IMG/VR virus record: IMGVR_UViG_3300027749_000066
Span: 1 to 64,000 of that record
Length of the DNA stretch: 64,000 nucleotides
DNA from: a virus
Reading direction: 5' to 3' (one strand)
In this document: positions 8,272-14,713 of the stretch, in pieces
Numbering within the stretch: position 1 is the first letter of the stretch
Layout of the letters: every line of letters starts with the position of its first letter
Translations under genes and position numbers: made by a program
Notes under the pieces: model-generated
Seen by the model: only the letters and a program-made list of their open reading frames with translations
Database searches by the model: none
Told to the model about the DNA's origin: nothing

Positions 8272-8332
8272 AGTTAGTAATTTGACTTTTTAGTAAATCT
8301 TATCTACAATTAATAGGATCGGAGGATTGTTT

Positions 8333-11300
8333 ATGCAATCTGGACTTAATTTCACTTTCCCGTTTCAAAAGATTAATAAGGAACAGAGAATTGTTACTGG
8401 TATTGCTACTGCTGACAATCCGGATTTAGTTGATGATGTTGTTAATTTTGATGCTTCTGTCAAGGCTTTTTCTAATTGGATTGGCAATATTAGAGAAATG
8501 CATTCTCCTATTGCTGTAGGAAAACTTGTTGATTGGAAAACTGTTCCTGTCTCTTATAATGGTCAGATGTATCAAGGTATTGAAGTTTCTGTTTATATTT
8601 CCAAAGGTGCCGAAAATACTTGGCAAAAAATTCTTGATGGAACTTTGAAAGGTTTTTCCATTGGCGGAAATATTGGTAAAACTGAAAATGTTTTTATGGA
8701 ACGTCATGGAAGAAAAGTTCGTGAGATTCAAGATTATATGCTTGGTGAACTTAGTGTTGTAGATAATCCTTGTAATCCTGCTGGTATGTTTGCAATGATC
8801 AAAAGTGTTAATGGTAAGCTTGAGTATGTTGCTGGTTCAATGCAAGATGTTTTTTATTGTGAAGACGATGGCTATACCTCAGTAGGTGGAGATAGTTCTT
8901 GCCCATCTTGTTCTGAGGAAATGATGATTATTGGTAAATCTGAAGATTATGATGAAATTTTGATAAATAAATTTATTCAAACTATTCATGATTCTTTTGA
9001 AAAAGCTATTTCTGATATCAATACTGTTCCAACTGATGCTATGGCTGCTGAGGCAAAGCGCGGGCTTGATTGGCGTAAAGAGTTTAATCGTGGTGGACTT
9101 GCTGTAGGCGTTGCTAGAGCAAGAGATATTATGAATAAAGATACTTTGAGTATCTCAACTGTTCGTAGAATGCATAGTTTTTTTGCTCGTCATGAAGTTG
9201 ATAAAAAAGGTAAAGGTTTCTCTCCGGGCGAGGATGGCTATCCATCAGCAGGAAGAATCGCTTGGGCTTTATGGGGAGGCGATCCCGGTAAATCTTGGGC
9301 TGATGCTATTGTAAATCGTATTAATAATATGAATAAGAATATTTTAATAAATAAATCAACGATTCAAAATGGTGATTTTGTTTCTTGGAGTTCTTCTGGT
9401 GGAGACGCTAGAGGCAAAGTGACCAAAATTGAAACAAATGGAAGTATCAATATTCCTGATTCTAGTTTTAATATTACTGGAACTGAAGAAGATCCCGCCC
9501 TTCTTATTCAAATTTGGCATAAAAATGAACAAGGTTGGTCTGAAACTAATACTTATGTAGGACATAAGATGTCTACTGTTTCTAAAATAAATGATTTAAA
9601 TAAGAAAGATATGGATATGAATAAATCACAAGATATGTGTAAAATGTGTGAAGATAATGGTTATCTTCAGAAAGATATGACTTGTCCATATTGTGATGGC
9701 ATGGGTTGTCTTGATGATAATAGCGATTGTTCTTCTTGTGACTCTACTGGCACACTTATGGAGGGCGATAACTGTCCCATGTGTAAAATGGTAGATACTG
9801 CGTCTATGGCTAGTGGCGGTATTCTTCAGCCTGTTCAGGGTCTTCCTCCGCAGAGAAAAAAGAAGATGCGAAAGGACGCTCAGATGAAAACTGAGGGTGG
9901 CGATCAGTATCCCGCTGCTGCTTTTGCTTATGTTCCTGATGCCAATATGCCTTCAACTTGGAAACTTCGTCTTTGGGAGTCGCCTTCTGCTAAGGAAACT
10001 GTTGCTCAGGTTTCAAGAGCAGCAACTGCTCTTACTTCTGCTGGTTTCCGTGGCAATAAGGTTCAGATTCCTGCTGCTGATCTTGCTGGTGTTAAGGAAA
10101 AAATTCGTGCTGCTTGGCATCGTGTTAATGGGCCAGATCGTGCTCTTCCGGCTGTTTTGAAGGGTTATGAATCTGGTGATATTTCTAAGATGATGCCTAT
10201 GCCTAGTTATAGTGGATCTCAAGTGATTGCTGCACTTCAAAAAGCTGTTGGAGATGTTGCAGTTATGTATACTCATGCTCATGGCTATCATTGGAATGTT
10301 CGTGGTAGTGATTTTGCTCAGTATCACGCTTTATTTGAGGCTATTTATACTGATGTATATGAGAGCATCGATCCTCTTGCAGAAAATATTTTAAAGATGG
10401 GTGGAACTGCTCCTAGAGGTCTTAGTGAGTTTTTATCTTTTGCTACAATTGATGATGATCCTCTTATGGTTGCTGATCCAGAAATGCTTGCTGCCGATCT
10501 TGCTGAAGATAATGATGCAGTTATTGATAGTTTAAATAATGTTTTTGTAATCGCCAATGCTGCCAATCAGCAGGGTGTTTGTAATTTTGTTGCTGAAAGA
10601 ATTGATCAGCATCAAAAGTGGGCGTGGCAGTTGAAGGTATCTGATGATATTTACGAGATGCCCGAATCAATGGAGGGAATGATGGTTTCTAAAAATAATA
10701 ATGTAGAGTTTGTAAAAAATGCAGGTGATTTGCAAACAAACGGAAATTATGATAATGTTTCATATATGTCTGAAGATAATCTTACTGAAAAAGAAAAGAA
10801 TAGTATTCTCTCCAAACTTGGAGAGTTTCTTTTTGGCAAGTCGCAAGTTGTTGATGTTAATAATATCAATCATCACCTCCGCATTGTTTCTGATGGAAAC
10901 ATGACGCAGGCCCCTCATGTTGTTGTTAATGTTGGTGGCGCTGATTTTGGTGATGTTATTAGAGATCCTGCAGTTACTTCATCTGGGTTCACTAGTTCAA
11001 ATGTTGATCATCAGAATATGATTAATGCTACTCCATCTACTGTAGAGCAGGGTGGAGATTCTAATGCTCATGAAGGCGCAGGGTCGGGCGAAGATGCCCT
11101 AGAAGAAGTTTCTGCTGGTAGTGGAAGCGATATGGCAGTAAATCAAGGATATCCCACAATGATGGGTAAATCTATTAATGAAGGAGATAATGAAATGGAT
11201 TTTGAGAAGGTACTTGAAGGTCTGAGTTCACTTCTTGATGAGAAGCTTGAGAAGGTCAAGGCTGATATCTCAGCAGAGGTTGACGGGAAGATCGATGCCA

Positions 11301-11518
11301 TCGAAAAATCCGTTTCCGATGTTCAGGATACTGCCAATGTTCTTTCAGGTGGACTTGAGAAAGTTGCAAACTCAGGCGCTGAGCGTAAGTCAACAGATTT
11401 TGACTATCAGGTCAGCAAAGAAGATGAGGAGTTCGCTAAGAGCTTCCAGACCGAAAGTTTTTGGGGCGGAGTTTTTGTCCCTACCGAGATCTGCAAGGTC
11501 TTGGGTTACGATTCATGA
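8333..11518 (+). CDS. Capsid maturation protease / scaffold polyprotein with embedded Dps domain
   Basis: 1,061 aa; ATG 8333 is chosen because GGAGGA ends 6 nt upstream. Residues about 1-170 are a prohead serine protease of the HK97/XkdF type, with candidate catalytic His57 (M-H-S-P-I-A-V-G) and Ser109 (G-F-S-I-G-G). Then follow a domain with R-G-G-L-A-V-G-V-A-R-A-R and Y-P-S-A-G-R-I-A-W-A-L-W-G-G (about 235-330), a small Tudor/HVA1-like beta domain (about 343-418), a CxxC-rich zinc cluster (about 436-485) and a W-K-L-R-L-W domain (about 520-605). A Dps/ferritin-like domain (about 625-770) keeps all ferroxidase ligands: His653, His665, Glu669, Asp680, Glu684. The C-terminal Glu/Lys coiled coil (about 950-1020) looks like scaffold. 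The major capsid gene follows 16 nt later. Confidence 0.8.
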   Translation: MQSGLNFTFPFQKINKEQRIVTGIATADNPDLVDDVVNFDASVKAFSNWIGNIREMHSPIAVGKLVDWKTVPVSYNGQMYQGIEVSVYISKGAENTWQKILDGTLKGFSIGGNIGKTENVFMERHGRKVREIQDYMLGELSVVDNPCNPAGMFAMIKSVNGKLEYVAGSMQDVFYCEDDGYTSVGGDSSCPSCSEEMMIIGKSEDYDEILINKFIQTIHDSFEKAISDINTVPTDAMAAEAKRGLDWRKEFNRGGLAVGVARARDIMNKDTLSISTVRRMHSFFARHEVDKKGKGFSPGEDGYPSAGRIAWALWGGDPGKSWADAIVNRINNMNKNILINKSTIQNGDFVSWSSSGGDARGKVTKIETNGSINIPDSSFNITGTEEDPALLIQIWHKNEQGWSETNTYVGHKMSTVSKINDLNKKDMDMNKSQDMCKMCEDNGYLQKDMTCPYCDGMGCLDDNSDCSSCDSTGTLMEGDNCPMCKMVDTASMASGGILQPVQGLPPQRKKKMRKDAQMKTEGGDQYPAAAFAYVPDANMPSTWKLRLWESPSAKETVAQVSRAATALTSAGFRGNKVQIPAADLAGVKEKIRAAWHRVNGPDRALPAVLKGYESGDISKMMPMPSYSGSQVIAALQKAVGDVAVMYTHAHGYHWNVRGSDFAQYHALFEAIYTDVYESIDPLAENILKMGGTAPRGLSEFLSFATIDDDPLMVADPEMLAADLAEDNDAVIDSLNNVFVIANAANQQGVCNFVAERIDQHQKWAWQLKVSDDIYEMPESMEGMMVSKNNNVEFVKNAGDLQTNGNYDNVSYMSEDNLTEKEKNSILSKLGEFLFGKSQVVDVNNINHHLRIVSDGNMTQAPHVVVNVGGADFGDVIRDPAVTSSGFTSSNVDHQNMINATPSTVEQGGDSNAHEGAGSGEDALEEVSAGSGSDMAVNQGYPTMMGKSINEGDNEMDFEKVLEGLSSLLDEKLEKVKADISAEVDGKIDAIEKSVSDVQDTANVLSGGLEKVANSGAERKSTDFDYQVSKEDEEFAKSFQTESFWGGVFVPTEICKVLGYDS

Positions 11519-11534: not shown

Positions 11535-12626
11535 ATGAGTAACACTAGAGAATTATTAGAAAAAGCAGTAATTAACACTTCTACTTCCGCAGGTGCTGGT
11601 AACATCGGTGCAGCGGGTGGCGGTATTCTTAAGCCTCGTCAGGCTAATCGTTTTATCGATTATCTGTTTGATCAGTCAGTTCTTATGAAGACTGCTCGTA
11701 TCGTTCGCATGAGCGCTCCGAGTGTTGAGATCGATAAGGTTGACATTGGTAACAAGATTATGCGTAAGGCTACTGAAGGTACGGATGACGGCTCTAATGC
11801 TAACCCGACTTTCACCAAGGTCGCAATGACTACTGTCAAGCTTCGTCTTGATTGGGAAATCACGGTTGAAGGCCTTGAGGACAACATTGAGGGTGATTCT
11901 CTTGAGGATCATATCGCCTCTCTGATGGCTCGTCAGACTGCTAATGATCTTGAGGATCTTTACATCAATGGTAGCACTGCTCTTTCGAGCGATGCTCTTT
12001 ACAAGGCTCTTGATGGTTTCAAGGTTCTTGCCCGTGCAAGTGGTGTTGTTGTTGATGCTGCTGGTGGTAACCTCACCCGCTCTATCTTCGACAAGGCTCT
12101 TCGTGCTCTTCCGAATAAGTACCTTCAGCGTCGTTCGCAGCTTGCTTTCTCTACTTCTAGTTCGCTGGTTCAGGATTACATCTGGAGTCTTTCTCTTGAC
12201 GCTACCGCTAACTCTACTTACAATCCCGGTGGTGGCATTGGTACGACTGGCTCTGGTTTGGGTGGTTCCTTCGGTTCTGCTATGGGCGATGCTATCGTCA
12301 ATCAGGGCATGGGTGGCGCTACTGGTGGCGGCAATGGTCCCAACTATATCAACGGCATTCGTCCGTTCGGTATTCCGCTGCTTGAGGTTCCGCTTTACCC
12401 TGAGACTGAGACTGGCACTTATACTGCTGCCTCTGGCAATCATGGTATTGTTGAACTTACGTTCCCGCAGAACCGTATCATCGGTATTCAGCGTGACATC
12501 ACGGTTTACCGTGAGTTCAAGCCGAAGAAGGACACGATTGAGTACACTCAGTTCATCCGTGTTGCCAACCAGATTGAAAATGCCGCTGCTTACGTTCACG
12601 TAAGGAACGTAAAAGTTCGTTCATGA
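11535..12626 (+). CDS. Major capsid protein (HK97 fold)
   Basis: 363 aa, preceded by AGAGGTGA. Placed directly after the protease/scaffold gene, which is the standard position. It starts with a short hydrophilic arm, then R-F-I-D-Y-L-F-D and T-A-R-I-V-R-M, then a long helix (L-E-D-H-I-A-S-L-M-A-R-Q) and an E-N-A-A-A-Y-V-H-type C-terminal P-domain strand, as in HK97-fold capsid proteins. Codon choice shifts strongly to C-ending synonymous codons, unlike the fibre genes upstream, as expected for the most abundant virion protein. Followed at once by a strong terminator hairpin. Confidence 0.85.
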   Translation: MSNTRELLEKAVINTSTSAGAGNIGAAGGGILKPRQANRFIDYLFDQSVLMKTARIVRMSAPSVEIDKVDIGNKIMRKATEGTDDGSNANPTFTKVAMTTVKLRLDWEITVEGLEDNIEGDSLEDHIASLMARQTANDLEDLYINGSTALSSDALYKALDGFKVLARASGVVVDAAGGNLTRSIFDKALRALPNKYLQRRSQLAFSTSSSLVQDYIWSLSLDATANSTYNPGGGIGTTGSGLGGSFGSAMGDAIVNQGMGGATGGGNGPNYINGIRPFGIPLLEVPLYPETETGTYTAASGNHGIVELTFPQNRIIGIQRDITVYREFKPKKDTIEYTQFIRVANQIENAAAYVHVRNVKVRS

Positions 12627-12656: not shown

Positions 12657-12684
12657 AAGCCGGGGCAAATGCCCCGGCTTTGTT
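12657..12684 (+). terminator. Rho-independent terminator after major capsid gene
   Basis: A perfect 10-bp stem (AAGCCGGGGC / GCCCCGGCTT) with an AAAT loop, followed by TGTT. The GC-rich core CCGGGGC is repeated almost identically at 13389. Confidence 0.75.
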
Positions 12685-12703
12685 AATTTACAGGAGAATT
12701 AAG

Positions 12704-13360
12704 ATGCAAAAAATAACATCGGAAGAGACTGATTTGATAATAAGTCTTTATGATGATGGTGTCTACCCCGTAGATATTGCTAAAAAAATTGGTAGAGCAC
12801 CTGCCAGTATTTATCGCACACTTCGCAAAAGCGGGAGAACTGAGACTTTACCTGAACGAAAAGCAAGACATGGGCTTTCAGATGAACAGGTTATCGAAGT
12901 TATTGAAATGAGAAAAAATAATATTTCATATAATAAAATTGCTTCAAAATTTGGTTTAAATGGGCATACTATCGCCAAAATTTGTGAAAAAGCAGATATA
13001 GAATTTACTGATTTACGTTATGGTGAAAATAATGTAAATTGGGTTGGTGGACGTAGAGTAAATCAAAATGGATATGTTGAGATAACTATTCCTATTGATC
13101 ATCCATTTAGAGATGCAATGCGCGCTAATAGGGGAACTTGTATGGAACATCGTTTTATAATGGCAGAACATATCAATCGCCCCCTTGAGGCTCATGAAGA
13201 TGTGCATCATATAAATGGAAACCGCTCAGATAATAGAATTGAGAATCTAGAGCTTTGGAGTACAAGACAACCTAGAGGACAGCGTATTGAAGATAAGGTT
13301 GAATTTGCCTTAGAGATACTCTCCCTCTACTACCCCGAAGCACTCAAAGTTCGCTCGTAG
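12704..13360 (+). CDS. HNH homing endonuclease with helix-turn-helix
   Basis: 218 aa from ATG 12704, with AGGAGA 6 nt upstream. Residues about 1-45 are a resolvase/GcrA-like helix-turn-helix ([16 protein letters not shown]), and a second one lies at about 75-100. The C-terminal half is an HNH nuclease of the phage NUMOD-like group: [10 protein letters not shown], then [20 protein letters not shown]. Flanked by two near-identical terminator/promoter hairpins, so it behaves as a self-contained insert between capsid and connector genes. Probably a free-standing homing endonuclease. Confidence 0.85.
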
Positions 13361-13420: not shown

Positions 13421-14713
13421 ATGACTAGAGTGAGAAAATTGACTGAACAATCAAAATTCACGTTTATTGATCTGTTTGCTGGCATTGGTGGTTTTCATGC
13501 AGCACTGAGCGAGATGGGTGGTGAGTGTGTTTATGCTGTTGAGATTGATCCAAAAGCAGCAGCAATTTATGAATTAAATTGGGGTATCAATCCTCTTGGT
13601 GATATTACTGAAGTTGCCAATGATGATAGGGTTGATATTCCTGATCATGATGTTCTTGTTGCAGGGTTTCCTTGTCAGCCTTTCTCTAAGTCCGGTTTTC
13701 AACGGGGTATGAGTGATACAAGAGGAACTTTGTATTGGAATATCCTTAAGATTATTGAAGTTAAAAAACCAGCTTTTGTTTTACTTGAGAATGTTCGTAA
13801 TCTCGCTGGCCCTAAACATACTCATGAGTGGAATATTATTATATCTACTTTAAGAGATCAGGGCTATAAGGTTTCTTCTGATCCTGTCATTGTTTCTCCA
13901 CATAAGATTCCCCCTCATCTTGGGGGTACTCCTCAGAGTCGTGATCGTGTATTCATTGCAGCAGTTCGTGCTGATGGTATTTCTGATCTTTCTGATATAT
14001 CATTTTTGAATAATTATAATTTTGAGGATTGGAGTCCTCAAAACTGGAATCTTTGTTCAGATCTTCCCTTGCTTTCTAAAGAAGATGTAGAAGATTTTAT
14101 TTTAAATGATAATGAAATCTTTTGGCTTGAAGCTTGGAACGAACTTATTGTTGGTATTAAAGATAGTCTTGATGGTAATAATCTTCCAAGTTTTCCTATT
14201 TGGGGTGATAGTTGGATTATGCCTGATGATCTTGATATACCTGAAAATACTCCTAAATGGAAAGCAAGTTTTTTAATTAAAAATGCTGAATTTTATGCAC
14301 AACATCGTTGGATTATTGATGAATGGATTAGTCGTTGGGACTTTTATTCTGATAAATTCCCTGCTTCTCGTCGCAAGTTAGAGTGGCAAGCGCAGGATGC
14401 AGATTCTATTTTTGATACTTGCATTCAATTTCGTCCCTCTGGGATTAGGGTGAAAAAGCAAACATACCTTCCGGCTCTTGTCGCTATTACTCAGACTTCT
14501 ATTATTGGCAGCCAGATGCGTAGACTTTCTGTTCGTGAGGCAGCAAGACTTCAGGGTTTTCCTGAGAGTTTTGATTTTGGTGATCAACTTCATTCTGCTT
14601 CTTATAAGCAACTTGGTAACAGTGTCTGTGTTGGAGCGGTATCTTTTGTATTCAAAAAAGCGGTAGATCATTATTCAGATATTCTCAAAAACACTTGTCC
14701 GAGTATGATATAA
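13421..14713 (+). CDS. DNA (cytosine-5-)-methyltransferase
   Basis: 430 aa. All C5-methyltransferase landmarks are present in order: motif I D-L-F-A-G-I-G-G-F (about 17-25), motif IV G-F-P-C-Q-P-F-S with the catalytic Cys near residue 85, motif VI E-N-V, motif VIII T-P-Q-S-R-D-R-V-F, motif IX R-x-L-S-V-R-E-A-A-R-L-Q-G-F-P and motif X Y-K-Q-L-G-N-S-V. It appears intact. No partner restriction enzyme is visible, so it probably protects phage DNA from host restriction. ATG 13421 lacks a ribosome site and lies 10 nt after the hairpin; an in-frame GTG at 13430 is an alternative. Confidence 0.92.
   Translation: MTRVRKLTEQSKFTFIDLFAGIGGFHAALSEMGGECVYAVEIDPKAAAIYELNWGINPLGDITEVANDDRVDIPDHDVLVAGFPCQPFSKSGFQRGMSDTRGTLYWNILKIIEVKKPAFVLLENVRNLAGPKHTHEWNIIISTLRDQGYKVSSDPVIVSPHKIPPHLGGTPQSRDRVFIAAVRADGISDLSDISFLNNYNFEDWSPQNWNLCSDLPLLSKEDVEDFILNDNEIFWLEAWNELIVGIKDSLDGNNLPSFPIWGDSWIMPDDLDIPENTPKWKASFLIKNAEFYAQHRWIIDEWISRWDFYSDKFPASRRKLEWQAQDADSIFDTCIQFRPSGIRVKKQTYLPALVAITQTSIIGSQMRRLSVREAARLQGFPESFDFGDQLHSASYKQLGNSVCVGAVSFVFKKAVDHYSDILKNTCPSMI

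Follow-up and report, generated by a model that had tools for sequence, protein, structure and literature searches.

A Dps-type miniferritin domain is embedded in the predicted precursor of a head maturation protease in a 64,000-nucleotide stretch of viral DNA (positions 1 to 64,000 of the IMG/VR record IMGVR_UViG_3300027749_000066, hereafter the window). The fusion is real and recurrent and, as far as searched, undescribed; its function in the virion is what we infer from it. The reading that we favour, at roughly even odds (about 0.5), is that a miniferritin of working type would ride on the protease precursor into the procapsid, removing iron and peroxide there.

The product of the fused open reading frame is a predicted protease precursor encoded directly 5' of the capsid gene (Table 1), with a TTG at 8327 as a possible alternative upstream start. 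The preliminary description, made from the sequence alone, had placed the Dps domain in a capsid protease polyprotein, and this is borne out both by the phrog_9427 match of the N-terminal region and by the adjoining head protein gene. The Pfam families PF14550 (S78_2) and PF04586 (S78) match the protease region only below their cut-offs. Five residues of the protease domain, H57, S109, E139, S141 and D144, do not vary across six polyproteins, and the invariant H57 and S109 are candidate serine protease residues. Between the protease and the Dps lie two Cys-rich segments, module D2, a Tudor-like stretch and module D3, whilst C-terminal to the Dps a variable stretch leads into a long helix and a C-terminal tail, the helix conserved and the tail strongly so. 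Unrelated phages also have D2 and D3 in their head polyproteins, where the order of the modules differs. An AlphaFold2 model of the full-length polyprotein, built from six sequences, has a mean pLDDT of 39.6 and is confident only over about residues 626–768, the Dps part, so that it was not used for the other modules or the linkers. A Lys-Ser repeat was considered as a cleavage motif in the linkers and set aside, being neither enriched in the window protein nor present in the other fusions.

Table 1. Features of the fused open reading frame and the following gene (positions in the window)
Feature	Residues	Positions	Strand	Evidence and remarks
Head maturation protease precursor polyprotein with internal Dps	1061 aa	8333..11518	+	ORF
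Head maturation protease domain (XkdF/S78-like)	5-209	8345..8959	+	phrog_9427, E=8e-63
First Cys-rich (zinc-ribbon-like) segment	176-195	8858..8917	+	C176, C190, C193 invariant
Module D2	227-359	9011..9409	+	phrog_2859, E=7e-29; no assigned function
Hva1_TUDOR-like module	347-393	9371..9511	+	PF11160, E=1e-4, 22.6 bits, under the cut-off of 24.1
Second Cys-rich segment	434-486	9632..9790	+	CxxC repeats
Module D3	512-619	9866..10189	+	phrog_19463, E=2e-26; no assigned function
Dps (miniferritin) domain	632-768	10226..10636	+	PF00210, phrog_3636, AlphaFold2, Foldseek
Ferroxidase ligand stretch	His653-Glu684	10289..10384	+	H653, H665, E669, D680, E684
Predicted long C-terminal helix, scaffold-like	957-1015	11201..11377	+	low-confidence AlphaFold2; kept in 6/6 polyproteins
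Major head protein candidate, next gene		11535..12626	+	phrog_1623, virion structural (head and packaging), E=5e-80

The order of polyprotein gene followed by head protein gene is kept in the relatives L085–L093. Further 3' of the head protein gene are a head-tail adaptor and a tape-measure gene; with the head structural gene nearby, these indicate a normal head and tail module. Two genes occupy an unusual place, after the head protein gene and before those of the head-tail region: one encoding an HNH-like protein (12680–13360) and one encoding a C5-cytosine DNA methyltransferase (13421–14713), recognised by eye from its PCQ motif. No Rfam family and no tRNA were found in the window.

The fold and family of residues 632–768 as Dps are certain. 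The preliminary description had read a Dps domain at about residues 625–770, and both profile searches and structure prediction agree with it. The domain matches PF00210 (Ferritin) with E=7.4e-17 and 62 bits, against a cut-off of 24.5, and PHROG 3636, the phage Dps-like ‘DNA binding protein’ family, with E=1e-23; among solved structures, Dps proteins are the closest in sequence (8ff9, 6e-18; 3iq1, 4e-16). A single-chain AlphaFold2 model based on a 50-sequence alignment has a pLDDT of 96.0 and a pTM of 0.91. Its helices (4–31, 37–52/55–64, 73–79, 92–119 and 123–145) follow the Dps order, and the four-helix bundle with a short BC helix is of Dps rather than ferritin type. In Foldseek comparisons the best PDB matches are Dps proteins, the model aligning to the solved structures 3iq1, 2c41 and 2d5k with TM-scores of 0.90–0.93. 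Five IMG/VR contigs of other metagenomic origin carry the fused frame as well, at 72–100% identity over the best segment, and it is therefore not an artefact of assembly.

The iron-binding residues of the domain are conserved to differing degrees. All five ferroxidase ligands named in the preliminary description are present in the window copy, in the motif HWNVRGSDFAQYHALFEAIYTDVYESIDPLAE, which begins at residue 653, and a six-frame translation of the window (127,996 residues) contains the pattern H-x11-H-x3-[DE]-x10-D-x3-E a single time. Across phage relatives that claim stands for four of the five. Not one of the 113 unique phage domains, the 36 of the long-ORF set among them, departs from His653, His665, Asp680, Glu684 or Trp654, but the position of Glu669 is acidic in 36 of the 113 and non-acidic in 77. 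Among the 36 long-ORF domains, 20 have Gly there; elsewhere Gly, Ala or Ser is frequent, and the window copy has Glu. In E. coli Dps one subunit contributes His51 and His63, and its neighbour Glu82, to the high-affinity iron site, the low-affinity site being made up of Lys48, Asp67 and Asp78 (PMC9140674). The invariance of the four ligands thus means that the phage family keeps the whole high-affinity site of E. coli Dps, whilst the low-affinity site, in which Asp67 corresponds to Glu669, varies within the family.

The charge of the domain makes a role in DNA coating unlikely. The Dps domain is strongly acidic, with a net charge of -15 over 144 residues, and the sequence flanking it has no basic tail, although the rest of the polyprotein could still hold one. 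DNA binding through a basic tail is a trait of some Dps members only. Given the charge and the absence of an adjoining tail, coating of the kind seen with E. coli Dps is not suggested; it appears unlikely for the phage domain, and the handling of iron and peroxide appears the more plausible role. In the preliminary designation as an iron-oxidising DNA-protection module, protection through DNA binding is therefore doubtful.

The association with head proteases recurs. When 2.9 million viral contigs were scanned for the Dps domain, 460 relatives were obtained. Of the best 80, which were retained, most are free-standing genes of about 145–240 aa, and in 13 contigs the Dps shares a reading frame with a head protease. 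Further scans were seeded with the Dps of three fused proteins, which biases them towards fusions; with that bias, and counting by hand one locus per contig, Dps–protease fusions make up 25 of the 35 viral contigs with any large fusion, the head protease being the commonest partner, and two contigs from bacterial MAGs bring the total to 27. About seven architectures can be distinguished, in which the Dps stands either before or after the protease. In the window type (A; L001–L005) the protease comes first and the Dps is internal. Type B comprises proteins of 890–1990 aa in which Dps comes after a portal/protease region matching phrog_859 and phrog_18402 (L006, L012, L029, L096, L097, L124 and L037, the last truncated by the contig end). 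Type C has a HAD-type phosphatase, Dps and an S78 protease in that order (L049, L077, L095, L136–L138, L158, L159), and in type D the S78 protease is preceded by Dps, which may or may not have D2 ahead of it (L154, L157, L164, L165). The remaining three are single cases: an S78 protease followed by two tandem Dps domains (E; L036), an S78_2 protease with DUF6496 and then Dps (F; L026), and a weak protease match followed by Dps (G; L149). Gene order in L164 runs from terminase through portal and the D2-Dps-S78 protease to the major head protein, so that the fused protease stands where a prohead protease is normally found.

The phosphatase of type C resembles polynucleotide-kinase 3'-phosphatases (phrog_415, PF03767), with the DVDDT motif intact in L049; one head precursor would there carry both DNA-end repair and iron detoxification. 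Dps domains are also joined to other partners. The protein L044:4545-6956, which matches the minor head family phrog_16619, combines Dps with a zeta-toxin-like kinase domain, and Dps–DUF5824 fusions are found in L040, L078, L118, L125, L150, L152, L153 and L156; DUF5824 also lies inside the portal/protease polyprotein of L096.

The case for independent fusions is drawn from the differing protease types and domain orders and not from the Dps tree, in which parsimony gives eight changes of which only one is forced by strongly supported branches, the alignment having too few columns to establish separate origins. In L014 and L065 a separate Dps gene lies immediately 3' of the protease gene, an arrangement which would be a natural intermediate towards fusion. 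With the queries used, almost none of the free-standing relatives have a head protease nearby; nine loci that appeared to do so were discounted, as the matches were to the end of the query, mostly of about 50 aa, and probably reflect DUF6496. Outside viruses, a conserved-pattern search of a one-per-species set of 84,980 prokaryote genomes returned nine contigs with a relative. Of these, two MAG contigs carry phage-type fusions, and four contigs are archaeal (L167–L170, including Nitrosopumilales/Thaumarchaeota), at least L167 and L169 having cellular-looking neighbours. Given the narrow pattern filter, this says only that the phage-type subtype appears to be mostly viral.

Head maturation proteases of the S78 type act from inside the procapsid. 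Since the precursor must enter the procapsid in order to process it, a fused Dps would be carried into the shell, and it is probably loaded into the growing head. Delivery into the procapsid by the protease gene, as the preliminary description had it, survives as the most economical reading of the fusion to several kinds of head protease. Once inside, the Dps part would assemble into dimers or a dodecamer, and its inter-subunit sites would, to judge from the fold and the conserved ligands, oxidise ferrous iron, probably with peroxide. Fenton chemistry would thereby be kept off the capsid interior and the packaged DNA, protection arising from the removal of iron and peroxide and not from DNA coating. 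The protease may also cut the Dps free.

Against this reading stand the variable Glu669 position and the loss of the domain in some close relatives. Moreover, most Dps relatives are free-standing and, with the queries used, almost none of them has a head protease nearby, so that a role outside the head is also served. The fused domain could instead act in the infected cell, guarding replicating DNA against oxidative stress, with the fusion tying its production to late expression and the domain later being lost or degraded. The position of some relatives in replication regions, as in Aeromonas phage BUCT695, is consistent with such a role. However, any late gene could serve as that tie, whereas head proteases are the commonest partner and are joined in several architectures, so that we regard action in the cell as unlikely, though as the likeliest of the alternatives.

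Comparisons among close relatives reveal both selection on the domain and its loss. Against the two nearest relatives, L087 and L088, the Dps segment is 92–93% identical with dN/dS of 0.064 and 0.085, the protease giving 0.08 and 0.165; no other part of the polyprotein is as well conserved in these two comparisons, and purifying selection on the window domain is strong. In the more distant L089 (2276-5263) identity to the window protein is 60% for the Dps and 81% for the protease, the Dps here being the less constrained of the two, and this divergence may reflect exchange of the Dps module between phages. The polyproteins of L090 and L091 (71% identity over the best segment) have no Dps at all. 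In L092:4798-6504 and L093:2874-4580 a deletion has removed D2 through to the first half of the Dps, leaving an in-frame remnant of the two last helices without ferroxidase ligands. The neighbouring head protein gene is present in all four. The domain is thus dispensable for head assembly, an optional passenger of the polyprotein.

These losses also bear on the suggestion that the Dps is an oligomerisation device which gathers protease precursors into an internal core and so aids the procapsid, its iron chemistry being incidental. Dps proteins are symmetric cage-formers, the long C-terminal helix of the precursor is typical of scaffolds, and L036 carries two Dps domains in tandem. Nevertheless, near relatives with no Dps or half of one keep the head gene order, the domain stands before or after the protease depending on the phage, and a purely structural use has no need of the high-affinity iron ligands which are kept in 113 of 113 domains. 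We consider such a device distinctly unlikely. Alternatively, the Dps could be carried in the virion, be ejected together with the DNA and act at an early stage in the next host, as do head-borne effectors. Other Dps-bearing head proteins carry a HAD-type phosphatase, a zeta-toxin-like kinase or DUF5824, and delivery by phage has been proposed for MuF toxins fused to head proteins (PMC5576092). Against this, a folded Dps dodecamer is wider than a tail tube, and passage would require unfolded monomers, making ejection quite improbable. Chance acquisition of a functionless, decaying passenger has a very small probability: the in-frame remnant in L092 and L093 shows that decay occurs, but for the window copy this account is largely refuted by the dN/dS of 0.064–0.085 of the intact domain and its invariant iron ligands.

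The proposed loading of a miniferritin into the head can be set beside several known systems. With the Dps family (PF00210; V. cholerae 3iq1, S. aureus 2d5k, T. elongatus 2c41) the window domain shares the fold, ligand spacing and BC helix; it differs in being internal to a 1061-aa precursor, in its strong acidity and in that its phage relatives lack a conserved fifth ligand. Free-standing phage Dps proteins (phrog_3636), such as Lactobacillus phage Iacchus gp163 and that of Aeromonas phage BUCT695, are of the same type and share its conserved core but, unlike the window protein, are encoded by separate genes of about 150–160 aa outside the head module. Head maturation protease precursors (S78/XkdF, phrog_9427, phrog_80) have in common with it the protease domain and the adjoining head protein gene. 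Known precursors of this kind carry scaffold or minor-head parts, whereas that of the window includes a module of ferroxidase type. In MuF polymorphic toxins and T4 internal head proteins a non-structural module is likewise brought to the head by fusion or targeting, although here the cargo is a predicted protective iron enzyme and the partner a protease; neither a MuF nor a toxin domain was found in the window polyprotein with Pfam and PHROGs. Thus the fusion fits the theme of head-borne cargo carried on a head protein, the cargo here being a miniferritin and the carrier a protease. Foldseek against predicted viral proteins (BFVD) revealed three more ‘Prohead protease’ entries carrying Dps (A0A6J7XDU5, A0A6J7WIS1 and A0A6J7WPK9; 333–763 aa), with query-normalised TM-scores of 0.86–0.95 over the Dps domain and names that are automatic only. 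Literature searches on phage Dps with prohead protease, the virion, auxiliary genes and freshwater phages returned nothing relevant, which is weak evidence, coverage being thin for subscription journals and preprints.

We advance tentatively the wider reading that uncultured tailed phages of several lineages load a miniferritin into their capsids through its fusion to the maturation protease, and that detoxification of iron and peroxide on behalf of the packaged DNA would be a previously undescribed virion function. If the Dps does enter the head, some phages would pack an antioxidant enzyme alongside the genome, which would bear on the survival of virions under oxidative stress in lakes, on the iron carried by virus particles and on the loading of chosen enzymes into capsids. 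Even without entry into the head, the repeated fusion provides a testable clue, since different head proteases have gained the same module, on either side.
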